A stretch of DNA of 64,000 bases from Robiginitalea marina (GTDB taxonomy: Bacteria; Bacteroidota; Bacteroidia; Flavobacteriales; Flavobacteriaceae). A program made the position numbers and the translations under genes. The notes under the pieces were generated by a model. It ran no database searches and had not been told where the DNA came from. It was given only the letters and a program-made list of their open reading frames with translations. Within the stretch, counting starts at the first letter, position 1. Every line of letters begins with the position of its first letter. This document shows positions 42,519 through 49,331 of this stretch, piece by piece. Where the stretch lies: positions 310,001-374,000 of the forward strand of contig NZ_JAMXIB010000002.1 in the NCBI RefSeq assembly GCF_024006985.1, read 5' to 3'.

Positions 42519-44720
42519 CTACTTCAAAAACAACAATTCCCGGTAGCGGGCCAGGGGCCAGTAATCGTCGGCTACCAGGCGTTCCAGCCGGTCGCTGTGG
42601 TGGCGGATCTCCTCGAAAAAGGGTAAAACGGCCTCGCAATAGGCCTCTGCTTTTTTAGGGACTTCCCTAAGGGTATTGGCCCTTTTGCGCGCCTCCGTCA
42701 TGGCTTCGGTTTTCTGGTGCAGCGCCTGCAAGTGCTCCGACAGCTGCTCCAAGAGGGCCAGCTGGGCCCCGGCCATTTTCTTGTGGGCAGCCCCGTAGAC
42801 CTCCTTCAGCCCGGCGATGTTTTCGAGCAACTGGTTCTGGTACCCGACCACGGCGGGGATAATGGAGTGATATACAAGTTCCCCCAGCACGCGCCCCTCG
42901 ATCTGCCGGTTGAGGATGTAGGTTTCCAGTTCCACCTCGTAACGGGCCAGGAGTTCCTTTTCGGTGAGCACCCCCAGGGAAGCAAACAGCTCCCGGGTTT
43001 CAGGGGCAGTCAGGACCTTCATGGCCACGGGGGTGGTTTTGTTGTTGCTCAGCTTGCGCCGGGCGGCCTCCTTTTCCCACTGGGGGCTGTAGCCGTCCCC
43101 ATCGAACCGGATGCGCTTGCTCGATTTGATGTATTCCCGAAGCACATTAAAAATGGCCTCGTCCTTTTTCAATTTTTTCTTTTCGATCAGCTGGTCCACG
43201 GCAGCCTTGAATTCATTCAGCTGCCGGGCCACGATGGTATTTAGCACCGTCATGGGCCTCGCGCAATTTGCCCGGGAACCCACCCCCCGCATTTCGAACT
43301 TGTTCCCGGTAAAGGCAAAGGGGGAGGTCCGGTTGCGGTCGGTGTTGTCGAGAAGGATTTCCGGGATCTTGCCCACCACGTTGAGCTTAAGCTCGGTTTT
43401 CTCTTCCGGGGACAACTTCCCCTGTGAAACCCCCTCCAGTTCATCCAGCACTGCGCTCAGCTGGGTGCCGATGAAGATGGAGATAATGGCCGGGGGCGCC
43501 TCATTGGCCCCCAGGCGGTGGTCGTTGCTGGCCGAGGCGATGGAGGCGCGAAGCAACTCCTCATAACGGTCGACGGCCTTGATGGTGTTCACAAAAAAGG
43601 TGAGGAACTGCAGGTTCTTCATGGGGGTGGACCCCGGGCTCAGCAGGTTGGTGCCGGTGTCGGTGCTCAGCGACCAGTTGTTGTGCTTGCCCGATCCGTT
43701 GATGCCCTCAAAGGGTTTTTCGTGAAACAATACCCGCAGCCCGTGCCGGTCGGCCACCTTATCCATTACGTCCATCAGCAGCAGGTTGTGGTCCACGGCC
43801 AGGTTGGCCTCCTCAAAAACGGGGGCCAGCTCGAACTGGTTCGGGGCCACCTCGTTGTGGCGGGTTTTGACCGGGATGCCCAGCAGCATGCATTCCTGCT
43901 CCAGGTCGCGCATAAACTGGAAGGCCCTGCCCGGGATGACCCCGAAGTAGTGGTCGTCGAGTTGCTGGCCCTTGGCCGCCGATTGGCCCACCAGGGTGCG
44001 TCCGGCCAGGAGGAGGTCTGGCCGGGTCTGCGCCAGGGCCTTGTCGACCAGGAAGTACTCCTGCTCCCAGCCCAGGGTTGCAATAACCTTGTTCACGTTC
44101 TTGTCGAAGTAGCGGGCCACCGCGGTGGCTGCAACATCCACGGCGTGGAGTGCCCGTAGCAAAGGGGTCTTGTTGTCGAGGGCTTCCCCGGTGTACGAGA
44201 CGAAAACCGTGGGAATGCAAAGGGTGGAGCCGTAAATAAAGGCCGGGGAAGTCGGGTCCCAGGCCGTATAGCCCCGGGCTTCAAAGGTATTGCGGATGCC
44301 CCCGCTTGGAAAGCTCGAGGCATCGGGCTCCTGTTGCACCAGCTGGCTTCCTCCGAATTTCTCAATGGCCCGCCCATCGGGGAGCAGGTCGAAAAAGGCG
44401 TCGTGTTTCTCAGCCGTTGCCCCGGTAAGGGGCTGGAACCAGTGCGTATAATGGGTGGCCCCCATGGAAATGGCCCAGGCCTTCATGGCTTCGGCCACCT
44501 GGTCGGCTATTTTCCGGTCTATCTTGGTCCCGGAAAAAATAGCGGCCTTCACGCTGGCCAGGGCATCGCGGGTCAGGTATTGCAGCATGCGCTCTTCATT
44601 GAAAACGCGTTGGCCGAAGTACTCGGAACGGCGGACGCCCTCTTCCTTAATGGGGGCAACGGGGGCCCGGGAGGCAAAATTGGCCTGGTTTCTTTGGGTG
44701 TTCATCATGGATTTATTCAA
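42519..44720 (-). CDS. glnN: Glutamine synthetase type III
   Basis: At 733 residues this is the large GSIII form. The N-terminal part contains GVRRSEYFGQRVFNEERMLQYLT. The catalytic core has FRNRTSP-like NRTSPFAFTGNKFEMRGVGSRANCARPMTVLNT and GINGSGKHNNWSLSTDTGTNL, with ATHYTHWFQPLTGATAEKHDAF before it. It condenses Glu and ammonia with ATP. An alternative start at 44705 (MNTQRNQ) is possible. It is divergently transcribed from a GSII gene, sharing a 193-bp control region with dyads also seen before PII-amt. Confidence 0.94.
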   Translation of the reverse strand: MNKSMMNTQRNQANFASRAPVAPIKEEGVRRSEYFGQRVFNEERMLQYLTRDALASVKAAIFSGTKIDRKIADQVAEAMKAWAISMGATHYTHWFQPLTGATAEKHDAFFDLLPDGRAIEKFGGSQLVQQEPDASSFPSGGIRNTFEARGYTAWDPTSPAFIYGSTLCIPTVFVSYTGEALDNKTPLLRALHAVDVAATAVARYFDKNVNKVIATLGWEQEYFLVDKALAQTRPDLLLAGRTLVGQSAAKGQQLDDHYFGVIPGRAFQFMRDLEQECMLLGIPVKTRHNEVAPNQFELAPVFEEANLAVDHNLLLMDVMDKVADRHGLRVLFHEKPFEGINGSGKHNNWSLSTDTGTNLLSPGSTPMKNLQFLTFFVNTIKAVDRYEELLRASIASASNDHRLGANEAPPAIISIFIGTQLSAVLDELEGVSQGKLSPEEKTELKLNVVGKIPEILLDNTDRNRTSPFAFTGNKFEMRGVGSRANCARPMTVLNTIVARQLNEFKAAVDQLIEKKKLKKDEAIFNVLREYIKSSKRIRFDGDGYSPQWEKEAARRKLSNNKTTPVAMKVLTAPETRELFASLGVLTEKELLARYEVELETYILNRQIEGRVLGELVYHSIIPAVVGYQNQLLENIAGLKEVYGAAHKKMAGAQLALLEQLSEHLQALHQKTEAMTEARKRANTLREVPKKAEAYCEAVLPFFEEIRHHSDRLERLVADDYWPLARYRELLFLK

Positions 44721-44913: not shown

Positions 44914-45942
44914 ATGATGAACAAAGCTAAGTTAGAGTATATCTGGCTGGACGGTTACCAGCCAACTCCCAACATGAGGAGCAAAACGAAGATCGAGACG
45001 GATTTCAGCGGGAAGCTGGAAGACTGCCCCATCTGGTCCTTCGATGGAAGTTCCACCCAGCAGGCGGAGGGCGGCTCCTCGGATTGTCTCCTGAAGCCCG
45101 TGTCCATCTATCCGGACCCGGCCCGGGAAAATGGCTACCTGGTAATGTGCGAAGTCCTGAGCCCGGACGGCACCCCCCACCCCACCAATTCCCGCGCCAC
45201 CATTGACTCGGATGCCGACGGGGATTTCTGGTTTGGCTTTGAGCAGGAATATTTCATCATGGACACCCATACAGACCTGCCCCTGGGCTTTCCCCCCGGC
45301 GGGTATCCCGGGCCGCAGGGCCTCTACTATTGTTCTGTAGGGGGCAAGAATACCCACGGGCGCGAACTGGTGGAACGCCATGCCGATTTCTGCCTGCAGG
45401 CAGGCCTCAATTTCGAGGGTATCAACCAGGAAGTGGCTTGCGGACAATGGGAATTCCAAATTTTTGCCAAGGGCGCCAAAAATGCCGGTGACCAGGTGTG
45501 GGTGGCCCGCTACATGCTCGACCGCCTTACCGAGGAATACGGATGGTACATTGAATACCACCCAAAACCCATCAAGGGGGACTGGAACGGAAGCGGGATG
45601 CACGCCAACTTCTCCAATACCCTGCTGAGGACCTGCGGATCCAGGGAAATTTACGAGAAGGTATGCGAGGCTTTCCGGCCGGTACGGGAGGAACATATCG
45701 CCGTATACGGAGCGGATAACGACCAGCGACTGACCGGGAAACACGAAACGGCTTCCATACACGACTTCAGCTACGGGGTTTCCGACCGTGGCGCTTCCAT
45801 CCGCATCCCGATCCTGACCGTGGAACGCGGCTGGAAAGGCTGGCTCGAAGACCGCCGTCCGGCGTCCAACGCCGACCCGTACAGGGTTGCTGCGCGCATC
45901 ATCAAAACCGTGGAAGGGGCCAACATCCAGGTGACTGCCTGA
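44914..45942 (+). CDS. glnA: Glutamine synthetase type II (eukaryote-like)
   Basis: This 342-residue enzyme is the short GSII form found in eukaryotes and some bacteria. It has LEYIWLDGYQPTPNMRSKTK, IWSFDGSSTQQAEGGSSDCLLKPV (beta-grasp), WFGFEQEYFIM, GINQEVACGQWEFQI, GDWNGSGMHANFS (ammonia/ATP loop) and SDRGASIRIP. Assignment to type II is clear from length and these motifs. It is divergent from the GSIII gene. Having both types next to each other suggests use under different nitrogen or feedback conditions. Confidence 0.94.
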   Translation: MMNKAKLEYIWLDGYQPTPNMRSKTKIETDFSGKLEDCPIWSFDGSSTQQAEGGSSDCLLKPVSIYPDPARENGYLVMCEVLSPDGTPHPTNSRATIDSDADGDFWFGFEQEYFIMDTHTDLPLGFPPGGYPGPQGLYYCSVGGKNTHGRELVERHADFCLQAGLNFEGINQEVACGQWEFQIFAKGAKNAGDQVWVARYMLDRLTEEYGWYIEYHPKPIKGDWNGSGMHANFSNTLLRTCGSREIYEKVCEAFRPVREEHIAVYGADNDQRLTGKHETASIHDFSYGVSDRGASIRIPILTVERGWKGWLEDRRPASNADPYRVAARIIKTVEGANIQVTA

Positions 45943-45963: not shown

Positions 45964-45993
45964 AACCCCGCTCAAAAAGGCGGGGTTTTTTTA
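45964..45993. terminator. Intrinsic terminator after glnA
   Basis: AACCCCGC/GCGGGGTT with an 8-nt loop leads into seven T. It overlaps the stop region of the convergent exchanger gene. Confidence 0.9.
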
Positions 45994-46932
45994 TGCCTGC
46001 AGGGTAAAGAAGAGGAACAGGACATAGGTCCCGAGGAGCACCAGGCCATTTTTCCAGTCGAGGCGGAGGCCCTTGGGGAGGAAAACCATGGGGAGCACAA
46101 GGAATGCAAAAGCCAGCATCCATACGAGGTCTTCGGCAATCAGCCGGTCATCCACCACCCGGATGGGGGTGACCAGGGCGGTAATGCCGAGCACGCCCAG
46201 GAGGTTGAAAATATTGGACCCGATCAGGTTCCCGACCGAGATGGCCTTTTCCCTGCGCACCATGGCGATGACCGAAGCTGCGAGTTCCGGGATGCTTGTG
46301 CCCACTGAAACTATCGAAATACCGATCACCCTGTCGCTTACTTCAAAATAGGAGGCCAGGCCCACGGCACCTGAGATCAACAATTCGGAGCCACCCCAAA
46401 GGGCCACCCCCCCCGCGCCGAGGAAAAATACCGTCTGGTAAAGCGGGAGCAGGGTCACCACCTCGGGGAGGGCTTCCACAATAGCCGGTTTCTGGAAACG
46501 CAGCAGGAAGATCAGGAACAGGAATAGGGAAGATACCATAATGATGCCTTCCGTCCGGCCCAATACCCGATCGGGCGCCACAAAGGCAAAAAACAGCAGG
46601 GATGCCGCCATCATCACCGGCCAGTCGGTAAAATAAAAACTGCGGCGGATTTCCATACTGCCGATCAACAGGGTTATCGCCAGGACCAACCCCAGGTTGG
46701 CGATGTTTGAACCCACCACGTTGCTCAGGGCCAGGTCAGGGAAGCCCCTGAGGGCCGCCTGTACGCTTACAATGAGTTCAGGGGCCGAGGTGACAAAGGA
46801 AACGACGGTCATCCCCACGACGATTTTGGGGATATTCAGCCGGAAAGAAAGGTCCACAGACCCTTTCAACAGGAAATTACCCCCCAGGATCAGCAGGGAT
46901 AAACCCACCGCGATATAGATAAAGTCAGCCAT
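45991..46932 (-). CDS. CaCA family sodium/calcium antiporter (YrbG-like)
   Basis: The start MADFIYIAVGLSLLILGGNFLLKGSVDLSF is preferred to a Met 18 codons upstream. The 313-residue protein has ten helices with two inverted alpha-repeats. The first is VVSFVTSAPELIVSVQAAL with NVVGSNIANLGLVL. The second is IVSVGTSIPELAASVIAMV with NLIGSNIFNLLGVLG. These repeats line the ion path. It exchanges sodium (or protons) for calcium. Confidence 0.93.
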   Translation of the reverse strand: MADFIYIAVGLSLLILGGNFLLKGSVDLSFRLNIPKIVVGMTVVSFVTSAPELIVSVQAALRGFPDLALSNVVGSNIANLGLVLAITLLIGSMEIRRSFYFTDWPVMMAASLLFFAFVAPDRVLGRTEGIIMVSSLFLFLIFLLRFQKPAIVEALPEVVTLLPLYQTVFFLGAGGVALWGGSELLISGAVGLASYFEVSDRVIGISIVSVGTSIPELAASVIAMVRREKAISVGNLIGSNIFNLLGVLGITALVTPIRVVDDRLIAEDLVWMLAFAFLVLPMVFLPKGLRLDWKNGLVLLGTYVLFLFFTLQA

Positions 46933-46984: not shown

Positions 46985-47040
46985 AACTATTTTTATAGTT
47001 TTTTAACTATATTTTTAGTTTCACAACTAATATTTTAGTT
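46985..47040. promoter_or_regulatory. Three-palindrome BlaI-type operator array
   Basis: Three 16-bp palindromes of form AACTA-N6-TAGTT start at 46985, 47005 and 47025, exactly 20 bp apart. The first and third have 6-bp perfect arms (AACTAT/ATAGTT, AACTAA/TTAGTT) and the middle one 5-bp arms. They end just upstream of the -7 box of the BlaI-type gene, so a repressor there would block its own operon. Confidence 0.85.
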
Positions 47041-47048
47041 TATGTTTG
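47041..47048 (+). promoter_or_regulatory. -7 box for the BlaI/BlaR operon
   Basis: TATGTTTG matches TAnnTTTG and directly abuts the third operator palindrome, 20 bp before the ATG at 47068. Confidence 0.6.
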
Positions 47049-47067: not shown

Positions 47068-47433
47068 ATGCAACGACTCACCCAACGGGAAGAAGAAATC
47101 ATGAAGCTGCTCTGGAAGCTGGAAAAAGCTTTTGTAAAGGAGTTGCTCGAGGCCTTCCCCGGCAAACGAAAGCCCCATTACAACACCCTTTCCACTATGG
47201 TGCGCAACCTGGAGGAAAAGGGTTTTGTGGGCCATGAAGCCTTTGGAAATACCCATCGCTACTTCCCCCTGGTAAGCCGGGAGGCGTATCGCAGGGAATT
47301 TATCGGGGAATCCATTGCCGATTATTTCGACCACAGCTACAAGAGCCTGGTCTCCCATTTTGCCCGGGAGGAAAAAATCTCAGCCGATGACCTGCGGGAG
47401 ATTATCGCCCTGATCGAAAAACAAAAGAAATGA
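47068..47433 (+). CDS. BlaI/MecI/CopY family repressor
   Basis: I use the ATG at 47068; a GTG at 47050 is possible but lies in the leader. The 121-residue protein has the winged helix typical of BlaI: LTQREEEIMKLLWKLEKAFVKELLEAFPGKRKPHYNTLSTMVRNLEEKGFVGHEAFGNTHRYFPLVSREAYRR. A C-terminal dimerisation helix follows (about 85-121). It represses its own operon, which includes the membrane peptidase overlapping it by 4 bp. Induction by proteolysis, as in BlaR1/BlaI, is expected by analogy. The operator array just upstream supports autoregulation. Confidence 0.93.
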   Translation: MQRLTQREEEIMKLLWKLEKAFVKELLEAFPGKRKPHYNTLSTMVRNLEEKGFVGHEAFGNTHRYFPLVSREAYRREFIGESIADYFDHSYKSLVSHFAREEKISADDLREIIALIEKQKK

Positions 47434-49331
47434 CTGATATGGAAGCGTACCTGTTGAAAGCCTCGGCCATCCTCGCCCTCTTCCTGCTGGTCTACCAGGC
47501 CCTGCTCAGGAGGGAAACCTTTTTCAGGGTCAACCGGTTTTTCCTGCTCAGCGGGATTTTCGCAGCCCTCCTCCTCCCCCTGGTGACCCTGCGGGAAGAG
47601 GTTGCCATCCCCCTGGAGCTGATGGCCGGGACACCGGCCTCCGCCATGCCGGACATGGACAATACTGAATCCCGGGTGGGGTTAAGGACTCTGCTATTTG
47701 GCGCTTACCTGCTGGGCATGCTCTTTTTCCTGGGCCGCACCGCAAGGCAACTCCTGGGGGTGCTGAAGCTGATGAAAGGCCCCCGCAGTATCCGAAAAGA
47801 CGGCGTGGTCCTACGGCCTACCGAACAGGTCGTCGGGGCGCCTTTTTCGTTCCTGAAGCATATCTTTTACAACCCGAAGGCGCACGACCCGGCCGAGTTC
47901 CAACAGATCCTGGAACACGAAAAAGTGCATGCCCGCCAGTGGCATACCCTCGACATCCTGCTGGCCCGGGCTGCAGCCGTGGCCCTCTGGCTGAACCCCC
48001 TGGCCTGGATCTACCAGAAAACCATACAGGAAAACCTGGAATACCTGGCCGATGCCGGGGCCCTGCGGCACCTGCCCTCGCCCAGGGAATACCAATACAC
48101 CCTGCTGAAGGTCTCCGGGAACCCGATGAGCCCTTCCCTGGTCAACGCTTTCAACAGTCCAATCCTCAAAAAACGAATCGTTATGTTACACCAAACCCCA
48201 TCCAAAACCATCCATTTGCTGAAGTACCTGTTGATTGTGCCGGTCCTGGCCCTGTTCCTGATGGCCTTCAACCGCGAGACCGTCTATGTGCCACAACTGG
48301 ATTCCGCCCAGGAGCTCATCACCCCTGGGGAGAAAACCATTGAGGTGACCATCGACAAAAATACCTCGGATGCCGAATTGCTGGAACTCAAGGAAAAAAT
48401 GGCTAAAGACGGGATCGACTTCTCTTACACCACCGTCCGGAACGGGGCCGGGGAGATCATTGACCTGTCCTTTAATTTCAGCGGCAAGGCCGAAAACGGA
48501 AACCCCTTCAGCGGCAGTTACAATTCGGATTCAGAGGAGCCCATTAAACCCGTATTGATCTATATCAATTCCGAAGGGGGTGTCTTCTTTGGGGAAGCCA
48601 GTACCTACAGGAAATTCAGCAGTGGCAAAGAAGTTCATTTCACTACAGGATCTGGCGAGAAGATGATCTGGGTACAGCGCTCCGGGGAAGAAGATGGACC
48701 GTTGTTTGGAACCCGGATGGCGCCGGGGAATCAGGTCATTATCGTGGACGGAAAGGAGGTCGACGAAGTGAAAGGGGAAAAGGCCTATCTCAGGCAACTT
48801 GAGGAACGGGAAAAAATGATGATCCTCACGATGGAAGACGCCAAAACAATAGAGGTACGTGAGAAGGACGGCGAGAAAGTCATCCTTGTGGACGGGAAAG
48901 AAGTGAGCCGTGAAGAACTCCGCGAGCAGGGCGAGGCCAACAAGATCTTTGTGAAAATGCTTGAAACGGACATTACTTCAGAGGCGGACATCCAAATCCA
49001 TAACATCGAAGTACAGGAAGACGGGAAGACCGAAAGGATCATCAGGATGTCGCCTGATGCCAAGGACTCGGTTCGCTACAGGGCCATTGTGATTGATTCC
49101 GAAAAATCGGGGGATTTCCCCCACGGGAAACAATCAAAAATGAGCTTTTATTCCACTGGAAACAACCCCCTGATCTTTATCGATGGAAAAAAGGCCAGCA
49201 AAAAAGATATGAAGGGCCTGGCCCCGGACCAGATTGAATCCATCAATGTCCTGAAAGGGGAAGCCGCCCTTGAAAAGTACGGGAAAAAAGCGGCTGACGG
49301 GGTGATTGAAATTACCACCAAAAAGCAGTGA
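47430..49331 (+). CDS. BlaR1-type M56 membrane metallopeptidase with TonB-plug-like tail
   Basis: The ATG overlaps the repressor stop as ATGA. Residues 1-260 form the M56 membrane domain: helices at about 8-24, 38-52 and 88-102, the zinc motif HEKVH (163-167), and a further helix near 228-245 (LLIVPVLALFLMAF). The extracytoplasmic part (about 260-633) has no penicillin-binding sensor motif. Instead it has repeated segments such as IIVDGKEV and ILVDGKEVSREEL. It ends in IFIDGKKASKKDMKGLAPDQIESINVLKGEAALEKYGKKAADGVIEITTKKQ, like the plug-start of TonB-dependent receptors. It probably senses an envelope signal and cleaves the repressor, but the signal is unknown. Confidence 0.88.
   Translation: MTDMEAYLLKASAILALFLLVYQALLRRETFFRVNRFFLLSGIFAALLLPLVTLREEVAIPLELMAGTPASAMPDMDNTESRVGLRTLLFGAYLLGMLFFLGRTARQLLGVLKLMKGPRSIRKDGVVLRPTEQVVGAPFSFLKHIFYNPKAHDPAEFQQILEHEKVHARQWHTLDILLARAAAVALWLNPLAWIYQKTIQENLEYLADAGALRHLPSPREYQYTLLKVSGNPMSPSLVNAFNSPILKKRIVMLHQTPSKTIHLLKYLLIVPVLALFLMAFNRETVYVPQLDSAQELITPGEKTIEVTIDKNTSDAELLELKEKMAKDGIDFSYTTVRNGAGEIIDLSFNFSGKAENGNPFSGSYNSDSEEPIKPVLIYINSEGGVFFGEASTYRKFSSGKEVHFTTGSGEKMIWVQRSGEEDGPLFGTRMAPGNQVIIVDGKEVDEVKGEKAYLRQLEEREKMMILTMEDAKTIEVREKDGEKVILVDGKEVSREELREQGEANKIFVKMLETDITSEADIQIHNIEVQEDGKTERIIRMSPDAKDSVRYRAIVIDSEKSGDFPHGKQSKMSFYSTGNNPLIFIDGKKASKKDMKGLAPDQIESINVLKGEAALEKYGKKAADGVIEITTKKQ

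Follow-up and report, generated by a model that had tools for sequence, protein, structure and literature searches.

Within the 64,000-nucleotide stretch of the Robiginitalea marina genome analyzed here (the window, to whose first letter all coordinates refer), the intergenic region between two divergent genes carries three exact copies of the palindrome AACTA-N6-TAGTT. Their starts, at 46985, 47005 and 47025, confirm the initial annotation in describing a triple palindrome that advances twice by exactly 20 bp. The distal site 1 (AACTATTTTTATAGTT, 46985–47000), the middle site 2 (AACTATATTTTTAGTT, 47005–47020) and the proximal site 3 (AACTAATATTTTAGTT, 47025–47040) are all exact matches and, as palindromes, are assigned to neither strand. 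Directly after site 3 comes a perfect TAnnTTTG promoter box, the −7 box, on the plus strand (TATGTTTG, 47041–47048). The last palindrome had been described as ending at the −7 box, with 47048 as the end of the array; the contact with the box is real, but site 3 itself stops at 47040, and 47048 is the last base of the box.

The ATG of a plus-strand gene encoding a 121-residue repressor of the BlaI/MecI/CopY family lies 28 bp past the array, at 47068 (47068–47433; PF03965, E = 4.8e-31). Its end is overlapped by a second plus-strand gene, which encodes a 633-residue M56 metallopeptidase with a TonB-receptor plug-like C-terminus (47430–49331; PF05569, E = 2.4e-09). On the opposite side of the array, a Na+/Ca2+ antiporter gene is encoded divergently on the minus strand (45991–46932; PF01699, E = 1.9e-59), with its ATG 52 bp from site 1. 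Beyond the antiporter we recognized by eye two different glutamine synthetase-like genes arranged head to head (42519–44720, minus strand; 44914–45942, plus strand).

The array stands out against several background models. In dinucleotide shuffles of the window, 0.03 exact matches are expected, and none of 100 shuffles reached three. Under a Markov model fitted to the AT-rich array itself, one site per 135-bp intergenic region has P = 0.0014, and a 20-bp pair appeared in none of 400,000 trials. A genome search for the motif, which the initial annotation had suggested as a means of defining the regulon, recovered the three array sites and no further exact copy in the 3,249,261-base genome; nor does the rest of the genome contain a second 20-bp pair at up to three mismatches. 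One-mismatch sites occur at 30 places, 27 of them outside the array, compared with 119 for a backwards-pattern control, and these additional candidates were rejected as being at chance level.

The repressor just downstream of the array is the sole PF03965 (Penicillinase_R) gene product of the R. marina genome. The domain match (107.9 bits) covers residues 4–117 of 121, and profile matches to MecI (1okr/1sax, 8.8e-18) and BlaI (1sd4, 1e-12) extend along the full protein. The TACA/TGTA operator is absent at the window's array, where all sites are AACTA-N6-TAGTT; TACA/TGTA is an operator trait of the studied BlaI/MecI/CopY members, not the domain that defines the family, and within Flavobacteriaceae a different repressor clade does have sites of the form TCTACA-N2-TGTAGA. 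The CopY/TcrY equivalog model (TIGR02698) scores the repressor at 47.5 bits, below its cut-off of 121.95, and the protein lacks a C-terminal Cys-X-Cys, having no cysteine anywhere in its 121 residues. Its partner had been called BlaR-type. This description holds for the protease, which has the PF05569 domain and an HExxH motif in the form HEKVH, but no penicillin-binding sensor domain was detected: at E ≤ 0.001 the C-terminus matches only a Plug domain (PF07715, 2e-05), and the NCBIfam model blaR1_generic, whose cut-off is 400 bits, scores 18.

In Flavobacterium psychrophilum, the flavobacterial sigma-A consensus TAnnTTTG is located at −12 to −5 (PMC9723704). Transferring this placement to the window predicts a transcription start at about 47053, and with it positions of −68 to −53, −48 to −33 and −28 to −13 for sites 1, 2 and 3. 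To compare promoters, we used 74 orthologs, obtained by a protein search of 120 Flavobacteriaceae genomes and taken together with their upstream DNA. The proximal site abuts the −7 box in 57 of the 65 array-bearing orthologs. In 64 of 72 ortholog promoters, a −33 TTG made up of the last two T of site 2 and the G that follows stands 19–20 bp ahead of the −7 box. The corresponding triplet in the window is TTT (47019–47021), which is poor relative to the ortholog TTG, and we therefore refer to the R. marina promoter as predicted.

The spacing of the sites is strict. A 20-bp pair is present in 65 of the 74 orthologs and three sites at 20/20 in 51, while pairs at all other steps between 16 and 30 bp were absent; in the other nine orthologs, no 20-bp pair passed the cut-off. 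The distance from array to ATG, by contrast, ranges from 13 to 117 bp, and this combination of a fixed step with a variable leader argues that the step is selected and not merely inherited. The same conclusion follows from the position-by-position conservation of the arrays, in which the half-sites are nearly invariant whereas the six inner (N6) and four linker (N4) bases vary, so that the step is not just carried along with the sequence.

Beyond the family, a scan for the 20-bp pair across 84,980 species returned at least 119 stretches, and all 80 titles among the matches listed are Bacteroidota, ranging from Flavobacterium to Chitinophaga, Sphingobacterium and Alistipes. A BlaI start adjoins 130 of 149 arrays examined, which comprise the listed matches and further loci. 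Ahead of BlaI-M56 operons, the array is conserved widely among Bacteroidota, and its grammar provides a search pattern for such switches across the phylum. Nor is the motif confined to autoregulation, since 19 of the 149 arrays have no adjacent BlaI start.

Comparison strongly supports the proposal, already made in the initial annotation, that the sites are operators of the adjacent BlaI and serve autorepression: most arrays stand at BlaI starts, the step is fixed by clade, and the proximal site keeps a constant junction with the −7 box. Very probably, the palindromes are bound by dimers of this BlaI, which would repress its own blaI-M56 operon until relieved by the M56 protease. We strongly infer autoregulation of the operon from the promoter overlap and from precedent in the BlaI family. 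Under this model, one repressor dimer would occupy each palindrome through its AACTA/TAGTT half-sites. Dimers on sites 2 and 3 would mask the −33 region together with the spacer that leads to the −7 box, with site 1 extending the array upstream; RNA polymerase would be blocked and blaI-M56 expression kept low. Activation of the M56 membrane protease from the periplasmic side would presumably lead to cleavage of the repressor, directly or indirectly, and hence to induction of the operon, including fresh repressor and protease. The 20-bp step would probably combine fixed neighbor-to-neighbor packing of dimers with the 20-bp spacing between the −33 and −7 elements. The fixed contact of the proximal site with TAnnTTTG among the orthologs supports this model, as does the constant position of their −33 TTG at the edge of site 2.

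How the dimers relate to each other on the DNA is less straightforward. The initial annotation envisaged three dimers on one face, about two helical turns apart. At 10.5 bp per turn, 20 bp corresponds to 1.90 turns, not exactly two, which leaves successive sites approximately −34 degrees apart, so the same-face arrangement is approximate. In a sister clade described below, an equally strict 18-bp step places the sites approximately −103 degrees apart, indicating that a simple same-face rule is not general. Cooperative packing of the dimers is nonetheless plausible, as site 1 holds to the 20-bp step although it contacts no promoter element. We consider it somewhat unlikely that the three sites are instead bound independently, with the step retained because each site must end on −33 or −7 and the distal site adding occupancy only. 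Independent binding would fit the finding that, in most orthologs, site 2 ends on the −33 TTG and site 3 on the −7 box, with a 20-bp spacer between the two elements; it would also fit CopY of Streptococcus pneumoniae, whose two neighboring operators are bound without cooperativity (PMC7253601). Such a constraint would not explain why site 1, which is off any promoter element, keeps a distance of exactly 20 bp to site 2 in most orthologs, nor why the 18-bp sister clade is equally strict on the same kind of −7 box.

The antiporter raises a different issue. A divergent antiporter gene accompanies the BlaI-M56 operon at 57 of 92 ortholog loci (among L018–L117); with its ATG close to site 1 in the window, the gene may share the control region. 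A reading in which the array controls both divergent genes, with the antiporter co-regulated and ion homeostasis as the output of the operon, strikes us as improbable. In the g121 genomes (most of L060–L076), no antiporter was found beside the operon, yet the 20-bp array stays with BlaI, which argues that the array belongs to BlaI; moreover, the window has no perfect TAnnTTTG directed toward the antiporter, and the array keeps its fixed junction with the −7 box of BlaI. That the palindromes serve another regulator or element, and stand beside BlaI by coincidence or in some other function such as forming hairpins, is very improbable, for although the 19 arrays away from a BlaI start could be cited in its favor, the step tracks the BlaI protein clade, the majority of arrays adjoin a BlaI promoter, and among the exceptions several stand at other predicted promoters that have this −7 box; in L253, BlaI lies just downstream, behind tonB. 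As targets of BlaI, non-BlaI arrays at the same type of −7 box would be consistent with a wider regulon.

Many of the genomes that carry the 20-bp clade also encode a second repressor, 41–48% identical to the first. Promoters of this sister clade (L121–L153) share with the window the AACTA/TAGTT half-sites, an abutted −7 box of the same TAnnTTTG type and the repressor-M56 operon, but their two sites are set at an 18-bp step in 30 of 33 cases and at 20 bp in none. Often a third site follows the −7 box, 23–34 bp further down, its distance varying between promoters. The sites themselves also differ, base pair 6/11 being A6/T11 in 57 of 62 sites of the 18-bp clade versus 8 of 133 of the 20-bp clade, and so do the repressors, with Ala37/Ile47 in place of the His37/Asn47 of the 20-bp clade. 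The M56 partners diverge at their C-termini: in the 18-bp members scanned they end in TonB_C, whereas the plug-like C-terminus is found in the window's partner and in the strongest other match of the 20-bp clade. Two sister-clade loci, L123 and L130, have longer leaders between the 18-bp array and the ATG, containing an inverted repeat and a phrase near TGAACTTGTTTCAGTATCTCA; this segment resembles a small repeat element that has been inserted.

In a tree of 154 BlaI repressors, the window's 20-bp clade forms one branch (83 of 92 rows; support 100/96), the 18-bp rows a separate branch (38 of 40; 100/98) and rows with the operator TCTACA-N2-TGTAGA a third (12 of 12; 100/99). In this third clade (L154–L165), the −7 box (TACATTTG or TATGTTTG) apparently lies inside the operator. 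Operator step co-varies with repressor clade. Because step, base pair 6/11 and residues 37/47 all differ between the 20- and 18-bp clades, both spacing and sequence separate the paralogs, and the idea of spacing alone as a paralog code is weakened accordingly. Genomes with a single BlaI gene gave no support for a relaxed avoidance of A6/T11 (Fisher p = 0.73). The A6/T11 sites of the 20-bp clade (distal sites of L032, L045, L083, L089, L091, L093, L108 and others) usually have TCGTT as their second half-site; TCGTT instead of TAGTT would also spoil such a site for the 18-bp repressor, and shared ancestry is possible. Clade-specific spacing of multiple dimers offers a clean natural experiment in how a repressor family diversifies without cross-talk.

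The protein family, the M56 partner and autoregulation are of already known kinds. In staphylococci, autoregulation by BlaI/MecI together with BlaR1/MecR1 is the textbook model, and the operators are of the TACA/TGTA type. The window resembles that system in that its repressor aligns lengthwise with MecI and its gene adjoins an M56 protease gene; it differs in its AACTA/TAGTT sites, its plug-like C-terminus and an operon without a beta-lactamase or PBP2a gene. A second point of reference is provided by the CopY/CopR operators of the cop operons of S. pneumoniae, E. hirae and L. lactis, whose repressors belong to the same Pfam family. The CopY consensus is a 16-bp dyad, RNYKACANNTGTMRNY (PMC7253601), matching the sites of the window in length and in its CTA/TAG register, with outer letters that agree with AACTA/TAGTT; two such operators lie close together on the promoter from which the repressor itself is expressed (PMC7253601). 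The inner CA..TG of CopY sites is replaced in the window by free AT-rich bases, up to three sites are arrayed at an exact 20-bp step, and an M56 protease partner is encoded where CopY has copper-binding repressor tails and a pump. BlaI-M56 pairs are common in Bacteroidota but appear uncharacterized in the literature searched. That search, mostly without subscription papers and therefore weak evidence, returned no report of a Bacteroidota BlaI operator, of the 20-bp grammar or of the 18/20 paralog split.

Some arrays point toward the TonB system. Among the genes headed by arrays of AACTA sites at 20 bp located away from BlaI are tonB (L183, L224) and exbD (L239), mostly with a TAnnTTTG box next, and in L253 tonB lies between the 20-bp array and BlaI. 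These placements are a hint that the switch family is tied to TonB energy transduction. Considered together with the plug or TonB_C tails of the M56 proteins, they suggest that the switches may report on the TonB system. With more doubt than confidence, we propose that BlaI-M56 paralogs in the same flavobacterial cell are insulated by a two-part code, consisting of the 20- or 18-bp step and of base pair 6/11 as read by His37/Asn47 versus Ala37/Ile47, and that the switches may report the state of TonB energy transduction, not beta-lactams. The TonB-type domains on BlaI-M56 pairs provide a testable lead to the sensed signal. Two 20-bp arrays in Alistipes (L175:6374-6409 and L235:2896-2931) have neither a BlaI start nearby nor a TAnnTTTG box; the genes behind them are unrelated, one glycosyltransferase-like and one dehydrogenase-like, and these arrays possibly represent a different system or promoter type.
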